Assembly (NCBI RefSeq): GCF_000011345.1
Contig: NC_004113.1
Coordinates: 1,674,001 to 1,738,000, forward strand
Direction of reading: 5' to 3'
Length of the DNA stretch: 64,000 bases
From: Thermosynechococcus vestitus BP-1
GTDB lineage: Bacteria; Cyanobacteriota; Cyanobacteriia; Thermosynechococcales; Thermosynechococcaceae
Shown: positions 5,759-43,486 of the stretch, one piece after another
Numbering within the stretch: the stretch's first letter is position 1
Layout: every line of letters begins with the position of its first letter
The notes under the pieces: generated by a model
Database searches by the model: none
The model's input: only the letters and a program-made list of their open reading frames with translations
What the model was told of the DNA's origin: nothing
Translations under genes and position numbers: made by a program

Positions 5759-8758
5759 ATGGCTATTTTCCATGGCACATGGCTCCCAGAGCCGGCGCCA
5801 CAGTTTTTCATTTGGGCGGAAGAATGGCGATCGCTGGCTCAGGCAATCACGCCTTGGGCTCCCCCGGCGATTCCGGTTTATCCCTACGCCACCCAGAGAA
5901 AAACACCTCTTAGGAAGACAGCCCGCCCAAGTGCCACCTACGTTGCTTTACCGGCCCAGATTCAGGGGCATCAACTGTTACCACCACCGCTGGCGGAAGT
6001 GCAGGGGGAACTCCTATTTTTGTGGCAGGTGCCCGGCTGGTCAATTCCCGCTTCAGAAGTTTTAGAACAACTGCATCAACTGAGTCTTCACGGCCAAGAC
6101 AGTGGCAGTATTGGCGATGATTTGCGCTATTGGCTGCACGTGAGTCGCTGGTTGCTGGATTTAATTGTGCGTGGCCAATACCTGCCAACACCAGAGGGCT
6201 GGCGGATTCTGCTGACCCACGGGGGCGATCGCGATCGCCTGCGCCACTTCAGCCAATTGATGCCGGATCTGTGTCGCTGTTATCAAGCCGATGGCACAGC
6301 GTTGCAGTTGCCACCCCATGCTGCAGATCTCCTGGCGGATTTTCTACAGCACACCCTACAGGGTTATCTCCACACTGCCCTTGCTGACCTCGAATTGCCC
6401 AAAGTAGGCTTAGCCAAAGAACATGGCCACTGGCTAGCCTTCCTGAAAACGGGTCAAACCCCGGAACTGCCACCTCCCCTCATTGAACGCCTGCACCGCT
6501 GGCAAGAACCCTACCGCGAGCAGTTGCATCTGCGTCCCCAATGGCGACTGGCTCTGCAATTGGTTCCCCCAGATACTGCCGATGGTGACTGGCACTTGGC
6601 CTTTGGGCTGCAAACGGAAGGGGAAACGGACACCATGCTAAGGGCCGCCGAGATTTGGCAATGCACCCAAGAGGCCCTCCTCTATCAAGGGCAGGTGCTC
6701 TGGCAGCCCCAAGAAACCCTGTTGCGGGGACTGGGCTTGGCCTCCCGCATCTATCGTCCCCTCGATCGCAGTCTTCAAGAACGCTCCCCCGTGGCTCTGA
6801 CTTTGCACACCACGGAAGTTTATGCCTTCTTGCAAAGTGCAATTGCGCCCCTTGAGCAGCAGGGGGTTGCGATCATTTTGCCACCGAGTCTGCGCCGCAA
6901 TAGCGCCCAACATCGCTTGGGTCTGAAAATAATTGCCACATTGCCGCCGCCGGCCACTAACGGCTTGACGATTGACAGCTTGATGCAGTTTCAGTGGCAG
7001 TTGCAGTTGGGGCAGCATCCCCTCTCGGAGGCGGATTTTGATCAACTGCGCCGCCAAGGGACGCCCCTGGTTTATCTCAATGGTGAGTGGGTCTTGCTGC
7101 GCCCCCAAGAGGTCAAGGCCGCTCAAGAGTTTCTCCAGTCTCCCCCAAAGACCCAACTCTCCCTTGCAGAGACACTGCGCATTGCTACGGGGGATACGGT
7201 AACGGTGGCCAAGTTGCCGATTCTTGGCTTAGACACCAATGATGCACTCCAGACCCTCTTGGATGGCCTCACGGGCAAACAAAGCCTTGATCCAGTGCCA
7301 ACACCGCAGGAGTTTTGCGGTGAACTGCGCCCCTACCAGGCACGGGGGGTGGCGTGGCTGAGTTTCTTGGAACGCTGGCGGCTGGGGGCTTGCTTGGCGG
7401 ACGATATGGGCTTGGGGAAAACCATTCAACTGTTGGCCTTTTTGCTCCACCTCAAGGAAACGGGACGGGCCTACCGACCGACACTGTTGATCTGTCCTAC
7501 CTCGGTGCTGGGGAACTGGCTGCGGGAGTGCCAAAAGTTTGCCCCAACCTTGCGGGCCTATGTCCACCATGGGAGCGATCGCCCCAAGGGCAAGGCATTT
7601 CTGAAAAAGGTTGAAACTCACGATCTAATTTTGACCAGTTATGCCCTCCTCCAGCGCGATCGCACCACCTTGCAGCAGGTTCTGTGGCAGCATTTGGTAC
7701 TGGATGAAGCCCAAAACATCAAGAATGCCAACACCCAGCAGTCCCAAGCAGCGCGGGAACTTTCCGCCCAGTTTCGCATTGCCCTGACGGGAACCCCCCT
7801 AGAAAACCGCCTCCTCGAACTTTGGTCCATTATGGACTTCCTCCATCCGGGGTACTTGGGCCATCGCACCTACTTTCAACACCGCTATGTCCGTCCCATT
7901 GAACGCTATGGCGACACCACCTCCCTCAATGCTCTGCGCACCTATGTCCAGCCCTTTATTCTGCGGCGCCTGAAAACCGACCGCAGTATTATTCAAGACC
8001 TGCCGGAAAAACAGGAGATGCTGGTGTATTGTGGCCTCACCCTAGAGCAGATGCAGCTTTACACTGCTGTGGTGGAAGACTCCCTTGCTGCTATCGAAAA
8101 TAGTCAAGGCATTCAGCGGCGGGGCAATATCTTGGCCACCCTGACCAAGTTGAAGCAAATCTGTAACCATCCCGCCCAGTATCTCAAGCAAGAAGACTAT
8201 GCCCCCGATCGCTCAGGTAAATTGCAACGGCTTATAGAAATGCTGCAAGCGCTTCAGGAAGTGGGCGATCGCGCCCTTGTCTTTACCCAATTTGCCGAGT
8301 TTGGCACCCACCTGAAAACCTATCTGGAAAAGGCGCTCCAGCAGGAGGTGTTTTTCCTCTCAGGACGCACCCCCAAAGCCCAGCGGGAACTCATGGTGGA
8401 ACGCTTTCAACACGATCCCGAGGCCCCCAGGGTCTTTATTCTTTCCCTCAAGGCAGGGGGCGTCGGTCTCAATTTGACTCGCGCTAACCATGTCTTTCAC
8501 TACGATCGCTGGTGGAACCCAGCGGTAGAAAATCAGGCCAGCGATCGCGTCTTCCGCATTGGTCAGGCCCGCAATGTCCAAATCCATAAATTTATCTGCA
8601 CGGGTACCCTCGAAGAAAAGATCCACGAGCAAATCGAACAGAAAAAAGCCCTTGCGGAAATGATTGTGGGTAGTGGCGAACACTGGCTGACTGAACTCAA
8701 CCTCGACCAGTTGCGGCAACTGCTCACCTTAGACAAAGAGCGGCTGATCACCCTCTAG
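5759..8758 (+). CDS. SNF2-family DEAD/DEAH-box helicase (bacterial HepA/RapA-like)
   Basis: A 999-residue superfamily 2 ATPase of the bacterial SNF2 class. The N-terminal half (about 1-500) is the poorly conserved bacterial SNF2 accessory region. The helicase core follows: Walker A DDMGLGKTIQ near 548-557, the DEAQ box at 649-652, TGTPLENRLLELW, then a C-terminal helicase lobe ending with the motif VI stretch QASDRVFRIGQ. Such proteins remodel nucleic acid-protein complexes; the exact client is unknown. The start is nine bases after the stop of the GGDEF/EAL gene, so co-transcription is likely. Its TAG stop shares the tetranucleotide CTAG with the stop of the convergent YaaW-like gene. Confidence 0.94.
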   Translation: MAIFHGTWLPEPAPQFFIWAEEWRSLAQAITPWAPPAIPVYPYATQRKTPLRKTARPSATYVALPAQIQGHQLLPPPLAEVQGELLFLWQVPGWSIPASEVLEQLHQLSLHGQDSGSIGDDLRYWLHVSRWLLDLIVRGQYLPTPEGWRILLTHGGDRDRLRHFSQLMPDLCRCYQADGTALQLPPHAADLLADFLQHTLQGYLHTALADLELPKVGLAKEHGHWLAFLKTGQTPELPPPLIERLHRWQEPYREQLHLRPQWRLALQLVPPDTADGDWHLAFGLQTEGETDTMLRAAEIWQCTQEALLYQGQVLWQPQETLLRGLGLASRIYRPLDRSLQERSPVALTLHTTEVYAFLQSAIAPLEQQGVAIILPPSLRRNSAQHRLGLKIIATLPPPATNGLTIDSLMQFQWQLQLGQHPLSEADFDQLRRQGTPLVYLNGEWVLLRPQEVKAAQEFLQSPPKTQLSLAETLRIATGDTVTVAKLPILGLDTNDALQTLLDGLTGKQSLDPVPTPQEFCGELRPYQARGVAWLSFLERWRLGACLADDMGLGKTIQLLAFLLHLKETGRAYRPTLLICPTSVLGNWLRECQKFAPTLRAYVHHGSDRPKGKAFLKKVETHDLILTSYALLQRDRTTLQQVLWQHLVLDEAQNIKNANTQQSQAARELSAQFRIALTGTPLENRLLELWSIMDFLHPGYLGHRTYFQHRYVRPIERYGDTTSLNALRTYVQPFILRRLKTDRSIIQDLPEKQEMLVYCGLTLEQMQLYTAVVEDSLAAIENSQGIQRRGNILATLTKLKQICNHPAQYLKQEDYAPDRSGKLQRLIEMLQALQEVGDRALVFTQFAEFGTHLKTYLEKALQQEVFFLSGRTPKAQRELMVERFQHDPEAPRVFILSLKAGGVGLNLTRANHVFHYDRWWNPAVENQASDRVFRIGQARNVQIHKFICTGTLEEKIHEQIEQKKALAEMIVGSGEHWLTELNLDQLRQLLTLDKERLITL

Positions 8759-9537
8759 GCCATGGCCCACTGGGCGGCCTGTTCACCCCGCAGAAGGCGA
8801 ATTTGGGCGATCGCAAAAATGGTGGGAATAATGCGGGCATAGTTAGTGGAAATGGCTTGCCAACCCAAATCGGCAATAAACCATACCCAGAGGGCCGTAC
8901 TGACAAAGGCCAAGATACTGCGCCCCACTGCCAATCGGGCGACTCCCATGGCCGCTCCCCGTGACACCAAGGGGGCAATTGAGAGTTTGGAGCCGGCAAA
9001 ACGAATCGCAAACTGCCGTGCCACCTGCTGCACCACCATCGAGCGCACAACAGAACTGATGGCGATCGCGGCACCCCCCTCGAGGACTAAGCGCACCATT
9101 TCCATGGAAATGGGGTGGCCATGGTGCAATTCGGGCAAGCTCTCTTGAATTTGGGCAGCCAAGACCCGCCGATCCTGATCCCCCAGCTTTTTCCACATCC
9201 GCTGCAACACATTCAAGAAGATCTCCATTTCCAGTTCAGGCACGGTCCAACTGGGGGAAAACTTAATTTTTAAGTAACGACAGACCCGCATCAATGTTTG
9301 CCGATAGCTGATTTGCTGGGCTTTGCCCTTAAGCACCGTCAAACCATCGGCTGCCAAAAAGCGAAACCGCTCTTCAATGTCATCTAACCAGGCTTGACGA
9401 TCTTGGGCTTGTACCGCAATCGGATCCGGCGTGGTTAGATAGTCCAAGGGATTGAGCCGACGACGAAACAGAATTTCTGTTAGGTCTTGCAACTCCTCCT
9501 CTGTCGCCAATTCCAGCGCAGCCCGTAGCTCGTTCAT
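8755..9537 (-). CDS. YaaW-like (UPF0174/DUF3944-type) protein
   Basis: About 260 residues, starting at the second ATG of the frame (segment MNELRAALELATEEEL), where the family resemblance begins; an upstream ATG would add 16 unlikely Cys-rich residues. The N-terminal helix with repeated Glu/Leu, the central region with FLNVLQRMWKK, and the Ala/Ile-rich C-terminal half with likely membrane-associating helices resemble E. coli YaaW (UPF0174). Biochemical function of that family is not established. The gene reads away from the group II intron upstream and is convergent with the SNF2 gene, sharing CTAG at the stops. The family call is by recalled similarity only. Confidence 0.65.
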   Translation of the reverse strand: MNELRAALELATEEELQDLTEILFRRRLNPLDYLTTPDPIAVQAQDRQAWLDDIEERFRFLAADGLTVLKGKAQQISYRQTLMRVCRYLKIKFSPSWTVPELEMEIFLNVLQRMWKKLGDQDRRVLAAQIQESLPELHHGHPISMEMVRLVLEGGAAIAISSVVRSMVVQQVARQFAIRFAGSKLSIAPLVSRGAAMGVARLAVGRSILAFVSTALWVWFIADLGWQAISTNYARIIPTIFAIAQIRLLRGEQAAQWAMA

Positions 9538-9645
9538 GGGGTTCTTGCTCCAGCAGCAGCACAATAGAATAGGATGATTCTTCACCCCTGATTATAGAGA
9601 TTCAGGCTAAATTGTGGTACAGCCCTTCTGACTAAGAATGGAACA

Positions 9646-10491
9646 GTGCGACACGAAGTCGTTTAGATGATTGTCCCACTAGCCCAACAAGCTAGAACGG
9701 GACCGGTTGTGCCCCCAACCGTAGCCTAGGGAGGCATGCGTGACTGGTAACGGTCAGGTATGAAGCCCTCCCGACAACGGAGCCCGAACCGAAAGGTTGG
9801 AGCTGAATCCGCGAGGAGGAAGCAACTTTGCCAGCGTCAGGCGATAGGGAGCTAGGCTTGAGGGTATGGTGAGCACATGCGAAGTGATGCCAGAAGCCTC
9901 GTGATCTTAGACAGGCCAAAGACGCTGATAGGCCTGGGCCAAAATGGCAAACGGACAGGACTCACTGTTTGTTCTTCAGTGAGCGGGGACGATAGCTCCG
10001 TCGGGGCAGAGTCACCACCTAACCCCTCATATGTCATCTAAACGGAACGTGGTAAGCCCGTACTTTCGCCTTGATAGGCTAAGAACAAGGCAAGTGGACT
10101 GCGAGGAACAACCATGGAAGTGCGGGTAAAGGAGGTGGGAAAAAGCGAATGCCAATCTGTAATGGGTTGGATAGGGATTGAGGATGGTGGCAGGACATCC
10201 AACATCATCCCACTCGAAAGAGGGCAGACTTCCCACTGGTCCCCCGTTACGAGAAAACTCACAGAACCTCCCTAATGGTGACAAAGCAAATGGCGGTGAT
10301 CTTGAGTCACTGGTGCGGTCACCAACCTTCCACCAAAGGTAGAGAGGCTGTAGATGAGTATCGTAAAGGTTGCATGCACAACCAGTTCCTCTTAAATGAG
10401 GGGTCCTGGGGGGCTCGAGCCGGATGCAGGGAAACTTGCACGTCCGGTTCCTAGGGGGCTAGGGGGCAGCAATCCCCCCCTGCTACCCGAC
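9646..10491 (+). mobile_element. ORF-less group II intron (846 nt, apparently full-length ribozyme)
   Basis: Begins with the group II 5' consensus GTGCG and ends in a domain VI hairpin followed by CTACCCGAC (AY end). Domain V is recognisable at about 10418-10451: GAGCCGGATGC, a GGAAAC-type loop and the closing strand GCACGTCCGGTTC, with the AGC catalytic triad near its 5' end and good pairing throughout. Domain I-like segments such as GGAACGTGGTAAGCCCG are present near 10040. No reverse transcriptase or maturase ORF is present in domain IV, so any mobility would need a protein supplied in trans. It lies between the divergent YaaW-like gene and ccsA, in ccsA orientation. Two shortened relatives are at 41500 and 43072. 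Antisense open frames here are not genes. Confidence 0.85.
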
Positions 10492-29558: not shown

Positions 29559-30927
29559 TAACTCCATTTTTGCCACCAATCGCGACCAAGAATCCTCCGG
29601 TTTCGCGTGGTGGGCCGGTAATGCTCGTCTGATTAATCTCTCCGGCAAACTCTTGGGTGCCCACGTCGCCCACGCTGGCCTCATCGTTTTCTGGGCCGGT
29701 GCCATGACCCTGTTCGAGTTGGCTCACTTTATTCCCGAGAAGCCAATGTACGAGCAAGGGCTCATTCTCATTCCCCACATTGCCACCCTTGGTTGGGGTG
29801 TTGGTCCCGGTGGTGAAGTCGTGGACACCTTCCCCTTCTTTGTGGTTGGGGTGGTGCACCTAATTTCCTCCGCCGTCCTTGGCTTTGGTGGGGTTTACCA
29901 TGCAATTCGTGGCCCGGAAACCCTTGAGGAATACTCCTCTTTCTTTGGCTACGACTGGAAAGATAAAAACAAAATGACGACGATCCTCGGTTTCCACCTG
30001 ATCGTCCTCGGTATTGGTGCTTTACTTTTGGTGGCCAAAGCAATGTTCTTTGGTGGCCTCTACGACACTTGGGCACCCGGTGGCGGCGATGTCCGCGTCA
30101 TTACCAACCCCACCCTTGACCCAAGGGTAATTTTTGGCTATCTGCTGAAGTCTCCCTTTGGTGGTGAGGGCTGGATCGTTAGCGTCAACAACCTTGAGGA
30201 CGTTGTCGGTGGTCACATTTGGATCGGCCTGATCTGCATTGCCGGTGGTATCTGGCACATTCTGACGACCCCCTTTGGTTGGGCACGCCGTGCCTTCATC
30301 TGGTCTGGGGAAGCCTATCTTTCCTACAGCTTGGGCGCCCTGTCCATGATGGGCTTCATTGCCACCTGCTTTGTCTGGTTCAACAACACGGTCTATCCCA
30401 GTGAATTCTATGGTCCTACGGGTCCAGAGGCTTCTCAGGCTCAGGCCATGACCTTCTTGATCCGCGACCAAAAACTGGGTGCCAATGTCGGTTCTGCTCA
30501 AGGTCCTACCGGCCTTGGTAAATACCTGATGCGCTCTCCCACAGGTGAAATCATCTTTGGTGGTGAAACAATGCGCTTCTGGGATTTCCGTGGTCCTTGG
30601 TTGGAGCCGTTGCGCGGCCCCAATGGTCTTGACCTCAACAAGATCAAAAATGATATTCAGCCTTGGCAAGAGCGACGTGCGGCTGAGTACATGACCCATG
30701 CACCTCTGGGTTCCTTGAACTCCGTGGGGGGTGTGGCCACCGAAATTAACTCGGTGAACTTTGTCTCACCCCGCTCTTGGCTGGCTACGTCCCACTTTGT
30801 CTTGGCTTTCTTCTTCCTAGTGGGTCACCTGTGGCATGCTGGTCGTGCCCGTGCAGCGGCAGCGGGTTTTGAGAAGGGAATTGACCGCGAGTCTGAACCT
30901 GTCCTCTCGATGCCCAGCCTTGATTAG
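29542..30927 (+). CDS. psbC: Photosystem II CP43 chlorophyll apoprotein
   Basis: Inner antenna protein with six membrane helices that passes excitation to the reaction center and supplies a ligand to the Mn4CaO5 cluster. The GTG at 29542 is chosen: it gives the known 461-residue protein, has AGAAGAGG nine bases upstream inside psbD, and produces the 17-base psbD overlap typical of this operon. An upstream ATG at 29506 is in frame but lacks these features. The large lumenal loop E includes [14 protein letters not shown], which holds the cluster-ligand Glu and nearby Arg. A strong terminator follows 40 bases after the stop. Confidence 0.98.
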
Positions 30928-41200: not shown

Positions 41201-41499
41201 ATCAATTCAATATCACCGTGGGTCATGTTACCGCAATGCCCAAATCGGGGCCTGGTTCAATACTCAGATCCATCCTGCGGCCAGCCACCCATGGTTGATG
41301 GTGGATCTAACAGTACTGTCTGGCTCTGCGATCGCCACCGCAGTCCCTTTCCACAATTAGAATGCGCCACAATAGGCCAATCAGCTCACCGGCAAACTCT
41401 TGGGAGGGGTTTCAAGGGTGCTAAACTGTTTGCCGGTGGTTGCGGTCAGAGTTGTCGTTGGGCTAGATCACAAAGATTTTATTTTATCTAATTATCTGA

Positions 41500-41659
41500 G
41501 TGCGATGTGAAAGAGGCTGTAGGTGGGTATCGTGAAGGCCGTTCATACAGCCGGCTTCTCCTAATAGAGGGGCTTTGGGAAGCTTGAGCCGGATACTGGG
41601 AAACTGGAACGTCCAGTTCTTAGGGGGCTAGGGGTCAGTAATGCCCCCTGCTACCCGAC
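41500..41659 (+). mobile_element. Severely reduced group II intron (160 nt): 5' end plus domains V/VI
   Basis: Starts with GTGCGATGTGAAAG, similar to the 5' end of the full intron, then passes directly into sequence equivalent to the region before domain V (AGAGGCTGTAGG). Domain V (about 41586-41619) has GAGCCGGATAC, loop GGGAAAC and the return strand GGAACGTCCAGTTC; domain VI ends CTACCCGAC. Domains I-IV are absent, corresponding to about 690 bases missing relative to the copy at 9646. It is nearly identical to the last 150 bases of the copy at 43072, and both share a C-A mismatch in domain V. Confidence 0.75.
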
Positions 41660-41765
41660 AATCAGGTGTTAGGTGGCGCTTTCTCCTAATTGATGATCGA
41701 TGCTGACTGACATAGGACATTTGAGTGAGAAAATAAAGGGGAAATCTTTCGGTTAGGAGTATCAC

Positions 41766-42155
41766 ATGCCAGGAAAAGGAACCGCTCCGAAAAGCGGCGA
41801 TGAATTGAAACAACGAGTTGTTGCTCTTGCTCAACGTCTTGGATTACGAGTACAAACTGAGGTGAGAGCAGCGAGAAGGTTGTGGGGACAACAACGATAC
41901 ATTGATGTAGTCATCACCGATGACAAGAGTGGCAAACGGTTGGGTGTTGAGTGCAAATTCCAAGCTACGCCTGGTACGGCGGAAGAAAAAGTTCCCGCTA
42001 CCATTCAAGACATAGCCCATTGGCCTATCCCAGGCATAGTAGTTATTGATGGCGAAGGTTTTTCTACTAATATGCGGGGTTATTTGATGTCCACTGGCAA
42101 AGTGGTCTGGTTTGACGAACTGGAAGACTGGTTGCGCCTCTATTTTGGACTGTAA
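41766..42155 (+). CDS. Small PD-(D/E)XK nuclease, likely type II restriction endonuclease
   Basis: 129 residues. The catalytic core pattern is visible: Glu32, Asp47 in RYIDVVI, and Glu62-Cys-Lys64 in GVECKFQ, that is D-X14-ExK. The remainder ([18 protein letters not shown]) resembles the end of small nuclease domains. ATG 41766 has a good AGGAG site eight bases upstream. The stop is one base before the start of a D12-class adenine methyltransferase, so the two are a tight operon. That pairing is the main reason for calling it a restriction enzyme; its sequence alone shows only a nuclease. The region is visibly more AT-rich than its neighbours and lacks HIP1 octamers. Confidence 0.75.
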
Positions 42156-42156
42156 A

Positions 42157-43071
42157 ATGGGCGACTTATCTGTTCCACGACCTTTTTTGAAATGGGCTGG
42201 CGGTAAGACTCAACTGGCAGATGCACTGTTAGAACACAAGCCGGTTTACTTCAATACGTATCACGAGCCATTCGTAGGAAGTGGAGCAATCTTCTTTCGT
42301 CTCTATAGGGAAAATCAGGTTCGGCGCGCAATACTATCAGACATCAATGCTGAACTCATAGACACTTATCTGGCGATTCGTGATCGTGTTGCAGAAGTGA
42401 TCGTTCTTTTATCAGAATTTCCACACAGCGAAGATTTCTACTACGAAATTCGCGCAAAAGATCCCTGGAAATTGAGCCTGTCTGAACGAGCAGCAAGGAT
42501 GATTTATCTGAATAAAACAGGCTACAATGGTTTATATCGAGTCAATCGGCAGGGAAAGTTTAATGTGCCGTTTGGACGGTATAAAGCACCGAAATATCTA
42601 GACAAAGACAATCTTCTAGCAGTGTCACACGCCTTGCGAAACGTTGAAATCCTCTGCGCGCCATTTGATACCGTGACAGAGAGAGCCAAACCAGGCGATT
42701 GGGTGTATTTTGATCCACCTTATGTTCCAATTTCGCAAACCTCGAACTTTACATCCTATTATGCCGATGGCTTTGGGTTACAAGACCAGGAACGCTTGCG
42801 GGATATTTGTATTACATTAAGCCAAAATAATGTTTACATCACGGTTTCCAATTCCGATACTGCTATTGTGCGCTCTCTGTATAAGTTTCCCCATTTCGCT
42901 ATTGATGAAGTTCTAGCTAATCGTACCATTAATTGCAATGGGGCAAGGCGTGGCAAGATTACAGAATTGGTGATCACAAATTATCCTGTCAATCAAGCAG
43001 TCCAATTGCATTTAACGCAATCACGGCTACTTTCTGGAGCAGTCAAGGAGATACTCAAGAACGGAGGTTAA
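42157..43071 (+). CDS. D12-class N6-adenine DNA methyltransferase (Dam-like)
   Basis: 304 residues. The alpha-class order is clear: SAM-binding motif [11 protein letters not shown] at 9-19, [11 protein letters not shown], then the catalytic DPPY at 186-189, with [20 protein letters not shown] between as in Dam/DpnM enzymes. The most familiar members methylate GATC, but this family includes other targets, so specificity is open. Start ATG 42157 is one base after the nuclease stop; a frame extension to 42112 overlaps the nuclease and is unlikely. The TAA stop directly abuts the 5' end of a group II intron. Presumed to protect host DNA from the partner nuclease. Confidence 0.92.
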
Positions 43072-43480
43072 TTGCAACGCGAAAGCTAGCCAGATGATTG
43101 TCCCACCGGTACAACCTACTGGGATGGAACCAGCTGTTCCCCCAACTGTAGCCTAGGGAGGCATGCGTGGTTGGCAACGACCAGGTATGAACCCCTCCCG
43201 ACAATGTAGCCCGAACCGCAAGGTTAAAGCTGAATCCGTCAGGAGGAAGCAACTTCACCAGTGTCAGGTGATAGGGAGCTAGGCTTAAGGGTATACCCAC
43301 TGGTGCGGTCACCAGCCTTACATGCAAGGTAGAGAGGCTGTAGATGAGTATCGTAAAGGCTGTTCATACAGCCGGCTTCTCCTAATAGAGGGGCTTTGGG
43401 AAGCTTGAGCCGGATACTGGGAAACTGGAACGTCCAGTTCTTAGGGGGCTAGGGGTCAGTAATGCCCACTGCTACCCGAC
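43072..43480 (+). mobile_element. Internally deleted group II intron (409 nt)
   Basis: Begins immediately after the methyltransferase stop with TTGCAACGCGAAAG, a degenerate version of the GTGCGACACGAAG start, and follows the 846-nt intron closely to about GGCTTAAGGGTAT. It then skips roughly 440 bases and resumes at CACTGGTGCGGTCACC through domain V (near 43407-43440) and domain VI, ending CTACCCGAC. The 5' base of the intron consensus is changed (G to T), which may block splicing. Its end lies six bases before the stop of the convergent nth gene. Confidence 0.83.
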
Positions 43481-43486
43481 AACTCC

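Follow-up and report, generated by a model that had tools for sequence, protein, structure and literature searches.

A restriction-modification gene pair of integron-cassette ancestry between two group II intron remnants in Thermosynechococcus vestitus BP-1

Among the closest described systems to the locus analyzed here are the group II introns of BP-1 itself and the introns that lie beside integron cassettes. A total of 28 introns were described in BP-1 in 2010, three of them fragments, and the T. elongatus TeI3 introns were classed as group IIB1 (Mohr, Ghanem and Lambowitz 2010, PMC2882425). In the available part of that account, TeI3m is missing all that precedes domain IVa(3'), and TeI3n has an internal deletion that runs from domain Id to IVa1. 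Within integrons, UHB.I2 is a IIB1/CL1 intron in cassette orientation with a UUGCG 5' end, and for the IIC-attC introns inter-intron recombination has been proposed as a route of cassette formation (PMC7923331). Each ingredient of the block described below is already known, from intron fragments and the two enzyme families to integron cassettes and the IIB introns that lie next to them (PMC7923331), and the block is a variation on these known kinds rather than an element of a new class. A search of the literature found no integron cassette that is flanked on both sides by group II intron remnants and has an exact outer empty site.

The window analyzed is a stretch of 64,000 nucleotides, bases 1674001-1738000 of the BP-1 genome (2,593,857 bases in one contig). 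All parts of the block at 41500-43480 lie on one strand, in the order 160-nt remnant, 8-nt spacer, nuclease, methyltransferase and 409-nt remnant (Table 1). The initial annotation, which was made from the letters of the sequence, had placed intron copies of these lengths in the same orientation around the gene pair, and its coordinates were reproduced to the base; the near-identical repeat that it saw about 1.8 kb apart is a direct repeat of 150 nt formed by the remnants, with 97% identity and a spacing of 1821 bp. Equally exact were its observations that the two genes are separated by one base and that the methyltransferase stop codon (43069-43071) abuts the right remnant, which begins at the next base. 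The island had also been described as AT-richer and free of HIP1, and the DNA between the remnants does have a GC content of 44.3%, compared with 53.2% for the window, which is among the lowest 4 of 313 same-size stretches, with 0 HIP1 sites observed in the block against ~2.7 expected.

Table 1. Features of the intron-bounded block, in window coordinates.
Feature	Position	Strand	Remarks
Left intron remnant, 160 nt	41500-41659	+	RF00029 (Rfam, domain V/VI) at 41584-41659
True 5' end of left intron, GTGCGATGTGAAAG	41500-41513	+	GTGCGACGCGAAAG in intact copies; at empty-site junction
3' part of left intron: end of domain IV, domains V and VI	41512-41659	+	
8-base spacer AATCAGGT, intron to cassette	41660-41667	+	Missing from Anaerolineae copy
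GTTAGGT, integron recombination core (GTTRRRY)	41668-41674	+	Start of foreign-cassette homology
Integron-cassette body	41668-43013	+	98.3% DNA identity to Anaerolineae MAG Nak19 (L113:181-1526)
PD-(D/E)XK nuclease (PDDEXK_11), 129 aa	41766-42155	+	PF20472, 3.9e-19
D12/Dam-type (Dam/DpnM) adenine methyltransferase, 304 aa	42157-43071	+	PF02086, 2.2e-61; TIGR00571, 1.6e-81
58-nt stretch replacing methyltransferase C-terminal tail and cassette attC	43014-43071	+	
Right intron remnant, 409 nt	43072-43480	+	RF00029 (Rfam) at 43405-43480
Empty-site boundary: 41499 and 43481 adjacent in relatives	41499-43481	+	L062 (G002), L063 (G004)

When the nth flank was compared across ten congeneric Thermosynechococcus genomes, the left flank in two of them was found to run straight into the right one, with the junction sequence TCTGATTATCT[A/G]A^AACTCTCTATGGC, and no native base is left between the outer intron ends. 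As read from these alignments, the block entered as a single, precise insertion, with an intron 5' end on its left and an intron 3' end on its right, and the fusion of 41499 to 43481 in the relatives indicates that both inner flanks are foreign to the locus. The nuclease and the matching intron are absent from all ten congeneric genomes, as is the cassette methyltransferase, the only strong matches to which are to a Dam homologue of ~46% identity, the counterpart of a second Dam gene in BP-1. The intron-cassette-intron had been proposed to be present or absent as one unit, and this is what the exact empty site bears out; neither the pair at this locus without introns nor the introns singly was found in the ten genomes. 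An empty site with one intron had also been expected, but those of the relatives contain none. The unit has no second location, with one copy in BP-1 and none in the congeners. A single intron at ~9645-10491 of the same window, which served as a control, has an equally clean empty site in the same relatives; this second group II intron is near-complete and ORF-less.

Over their last ~149 nt the two remnants show 5 mismatches, while the identity of this part to the other copies in the genome reaches no more than 87%. Their 97% mutual identity, compared with at most about 88% between either remnant and the other genomic intron copies over the parts compared, makes them each other's closest relatives. 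Domains V and VI and the intact 3' end CTACCCGAC are present, as is typical of TeI3-type IIB1 introns, but neither has a complete set of domains I-VI, and EBS1/EBS2 are deleted in both. In the left remnant, a large internal deletion joins the 14-nt 5' end, 12 bases of which match, directly to domain IV. The right remnant, the only one matched by RF02012, consists of the 5' 223 nt and the 3' 183 nt, with T and not G as its first base (5' end TTGCA). The ~430 internal nt now gone from it cover the places that EBS1 (near nt 325-332) and EBS2 (probably near 255-265) have in intact copies, so that the right remnant has neither, which rules it out as a complete ORF-less intron.

The left remnant is almost certainly TeI3m and the right TeI3n, as the same deletion patterns are described for them, the match being by description and not by coordinates (PMC2882425). 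In its available part, that description is silent on their flanking a cassette, on the empty site and on the origin of the genes, and the 14-nt 5' end of the left remnant (41500-41513) goes unmentioned there. The intron family has 52 matching stretches in BP-1 and none in the 28 other genomes of the family that were searched for relatives of it, which suggests that the introns probably invaded the BP-1 lineage recently. Both remnants resemble UHB.I2 in being IIB1 and in cassette orientation, and its UUGCG resembles the TTGCA of the right remnant (PMC7923331). With the group IIC-attC introns they share a position beside an integron cassette (PMC7923331), but whereas those are of class C and target the attC bottom strand in the opposite orientation, the BP-1 remnants show none of these features; they flank the pair outside any integron, and the left one ends 8 bp before the core.

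Relatives of the nuclease, at 54-98% identity, occur in MAGs of Anaerolineae and other Chloroflexi, Desulfomicrobiaceae, Blastocatellia, Pirellulales and Hydrogenedentota, and at most of these loci the alignment extends through the methyltransferase. The closest is Nak19, a MAG from Nakabusa Onsen (PMC6013643), with 23 differences over 1346 bp. Homology with Nak19 begins at the G of GTTAGGT, upstream of which the sequence is unrelated, and a start at G^TTRRRY with unrelated upstream sequence in different hosts is what marks an integron cassette. In Nak19 itself, the pair lies between two RYYYAAC...GTTRRRY sites, both of which fold into long bottom-strand hairpins (z of -2.2 for the left and -1.4 for the right against shuffles). 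An attC is present at the 3' end of the pair there and in a second locus, L114 (z -2.7), while the sites of L116 and L117 fold no better than shuffles. In the attC arms, 93% of cells pair, compared with 29-49% when the arms are slid, and, as the arms are conserved, their covariation is uninformative. Copies of the left Nak19 site, 71-89% identical, occur elsewhere in these genomes, some on contigs shared with integron-integrase matches, and one genome (G391) has the gene for a full integron integrase (439.5 bits). The likeness to the integron cassettes of Chloroflexi and other phyla covers the two-gene cassette, its GTTAGGT start, the hairpins on both sides in Nak19 and, in related MAGs, homologues of attC close to genes for the integrase.

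In BP-1, by contrast, there is no attC at the 3' end of the cassette, which lies between chromosomal introns, and searches of the genome for an integron integrase (IntI) and for an attC of the Nak19 type gave no match and no copy, respectively. Judged from its sequence, the pair is an integron gene cassette in origin, and the BP-1 version is descended from one and is no longer one. As the pair is spread among other phyla and absent from the congeners, BP-1 is probably the recipient, and probably not from Nak19 itself. The initial annotation had allowed that the genes could have been brought in, but it had not anticipated that they had mobility of their own beforehand, as an integron gene cassette. 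The nuclease was also sought in plasmids, phages and viral contigs, and none was found to carry it. The 8-base spacer is probably donor context upstream of the cassette. Neither these 8 nt nor the 58-nt stretch that precedes the right intron matched anything informative, and a search of 39 genomes gave no convincing match for the origin of the latter. An attC reconstituted across the intron junction (43008-43071 joined to 41660-41680) was also considered; it forms no hairpin, and the right flank by itself gives no better fold than shuffled sequence.

The nuclease and the adenine methyltransferase occur together, with the domains of their families, and stay together at homologous loci, and they are predicted to form a type II restriction-modification (RM) system. 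The nearest solved structure to the methyltransferase is M.DpnII (2dpm), and by analogy this similarity suggests that its site may be GATC. Synonymous and nonsynonymous differences between BP-1 and Nak19 number 2 and 3 in the nuclease and 5 and 10 in the methyltransferase, which is too few to speak to selection. BP-1 has a second Dam-type methyltransferase (genome positions 1640499-1641329), 46% identical and conserved across the genus, and if both methylate GATC, that of the cassette would be redundant.

We consider it fairly probable that the BP-1 lineage captured this hot-spring integron-cassette RM pair by homologous recombination between group II introns; recombination between intron copies had been put forward from the outset as a route of entry, and it is also the best mechanism here. 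Each of the four borders, two inner and two outer, coincides with the 5' or 3' end of an intron, and, the inner borders being exact intron ends, recombination of a resident intron with a cassette-linked intron is the simplest route. One intron from each partner would explain the direct orientation, the similarity of the remnants, and the native outer and foreign inner flanks. The resident intron would have been inserted at ATTATCTGA^AACTC, between a glyoxalase-II-like gene and nth, and the incoming DNA would have held the cassette adjoining a closely related intron, with the donor pictured as having GAACGGAGGTTAA and AATCAGGTGTTAGG on either side of one intron. If a circular donor underwent a RecA-type crossover within the intron sequence that both partners shared, or linear transforming DNA did the equivalent, the product would be intron-cassette-intron, with donor DNA inside and native DNA outside. 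The pair would then have been fixed in place by later deletions, which took away the greater part of the left intron, the EBS region from the right one and the attC of the cassette. We infer the crossover, the donor molecule and the succession of these deletions; no donor with an intron beside the RM cassette was found. BP-1 is naturally transformable and recombines DNA homologously (PMC7005997; PMC6567925), and intron-intron recombination with exon shuffling was inferred in its genome for TeI4f/TeI4g, according to the available text (PMC2882425). Excision by recombination between the 149-nt repeats is possible as well, and would leave a 160-nt intron scar.

It is less easily supposed that the cassette was end-joined, by illegitimate insertion, between tandem or duplicated resident introns, with no homologous exchange between an intron of the donor and a resident one. 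The foreign homology does end on its right side, at 43013, off any intron or attC border, with 58 nt of unexplained sequence beyond it, as such an event might leave, but exact intron ends at both inner borders are not expected from end joining, and the tandem duplicate is an extra assumption, which together make this reading unlikely.

More doubtful again is a composite retroelement, in which a lariat running from the left 5' to the right 3' splice site was reverse-spliced into ATTATCTGA^AACTC with an intron-encoded protein acting in trans. One such event would leave exactly the empty site seen, a lariat-based insertion being expected to give the same junctions as a crossover in intron homology, and the available text reports that BP-1 introns are mobilized in trans by the proteins of other copies (PMC2882425). 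However, the unit is found only once, a well-formed inner splice-site pair would have to be skipped, and both copies have lost most of domain I, which recognition of the target requires, so that any event of this kind must predate their decay. That two group II introns can move intervening DNA, here the RM cassette, as one lariat retroelement seems to us quite improbable. Like an IS-flanked composite transposon, the unit has cargo between direct repeats and is present or absent as a single insertion with a clean, exact empty site, but it has no transposase or target-site duplication, exists as a single copy and is defective at both flanks. The self-mobile composite transposon made of ribozymes that the initial annotation had likened it to is thus not upheld, as there is a single unit and both introns are without target-recognition elements; nothing requires a retrohoming composite transposon.

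It is hardly credible that the RM locus was already there and acquired an intron on each side in two independent insertions. Other BP-1 introns do lie in intergenic regions, as the available text has it (PMC2882425), and an intron abutting a gene end is unremarkable in itself, but the nuclease is found in 0 of 10 congeners, which have only the Dam homologue and not the cassette methyltransferase, and the empty site at 41499/43481, which leaves nothing native between the outer ends of the introns, rules out such insertions. Least likely of all is direct insertion of the cassette by an integron integrase into a secondary site of the chromosome, as, despite the homology starting exactly at GTTAGGT, BP-1 has no integrase, the two introns and the intron-end outer borders would be left unexplained, and the empty site disfavors it.

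Capture through intron homology would mean that foreign genes probably used the repeated introns of a cyanobacterium as landing pads. The locus links three layers of mobility in hot-spring communities, namely group II introns, integron cassettes and RM genes. Given the exact junctions, capture by intron homology and by a retromobile composite make different predictions for sister strains, such as T. vulcanus NIES-2134, whose ANI to BP-1 is 99.0% (PMC7005997).

Related elements were also seen in other cyanobacteria. One genome (L089 in G103) has a decayed nuclease-methyltransferase pair, in which the nuclease is 82% identical with stops and is followed by attC-like sequence. In another Thermosynechococcus species (L158, G010:C1:1346000-1360000), a small integron at ~6044-9860 has a broken integrase gene and a GTTAGGC site; its one cassette encodes an 834-aa fused Eco57I-type methylase/BsuBI-PstI endonuclease, and its attC is 77% identical to the attC of the Anaerolineae cassette. 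Elsewhere in the window, 29956-30142 on the minus strand corresponds to IsrR, the antisense RNA of isiA.
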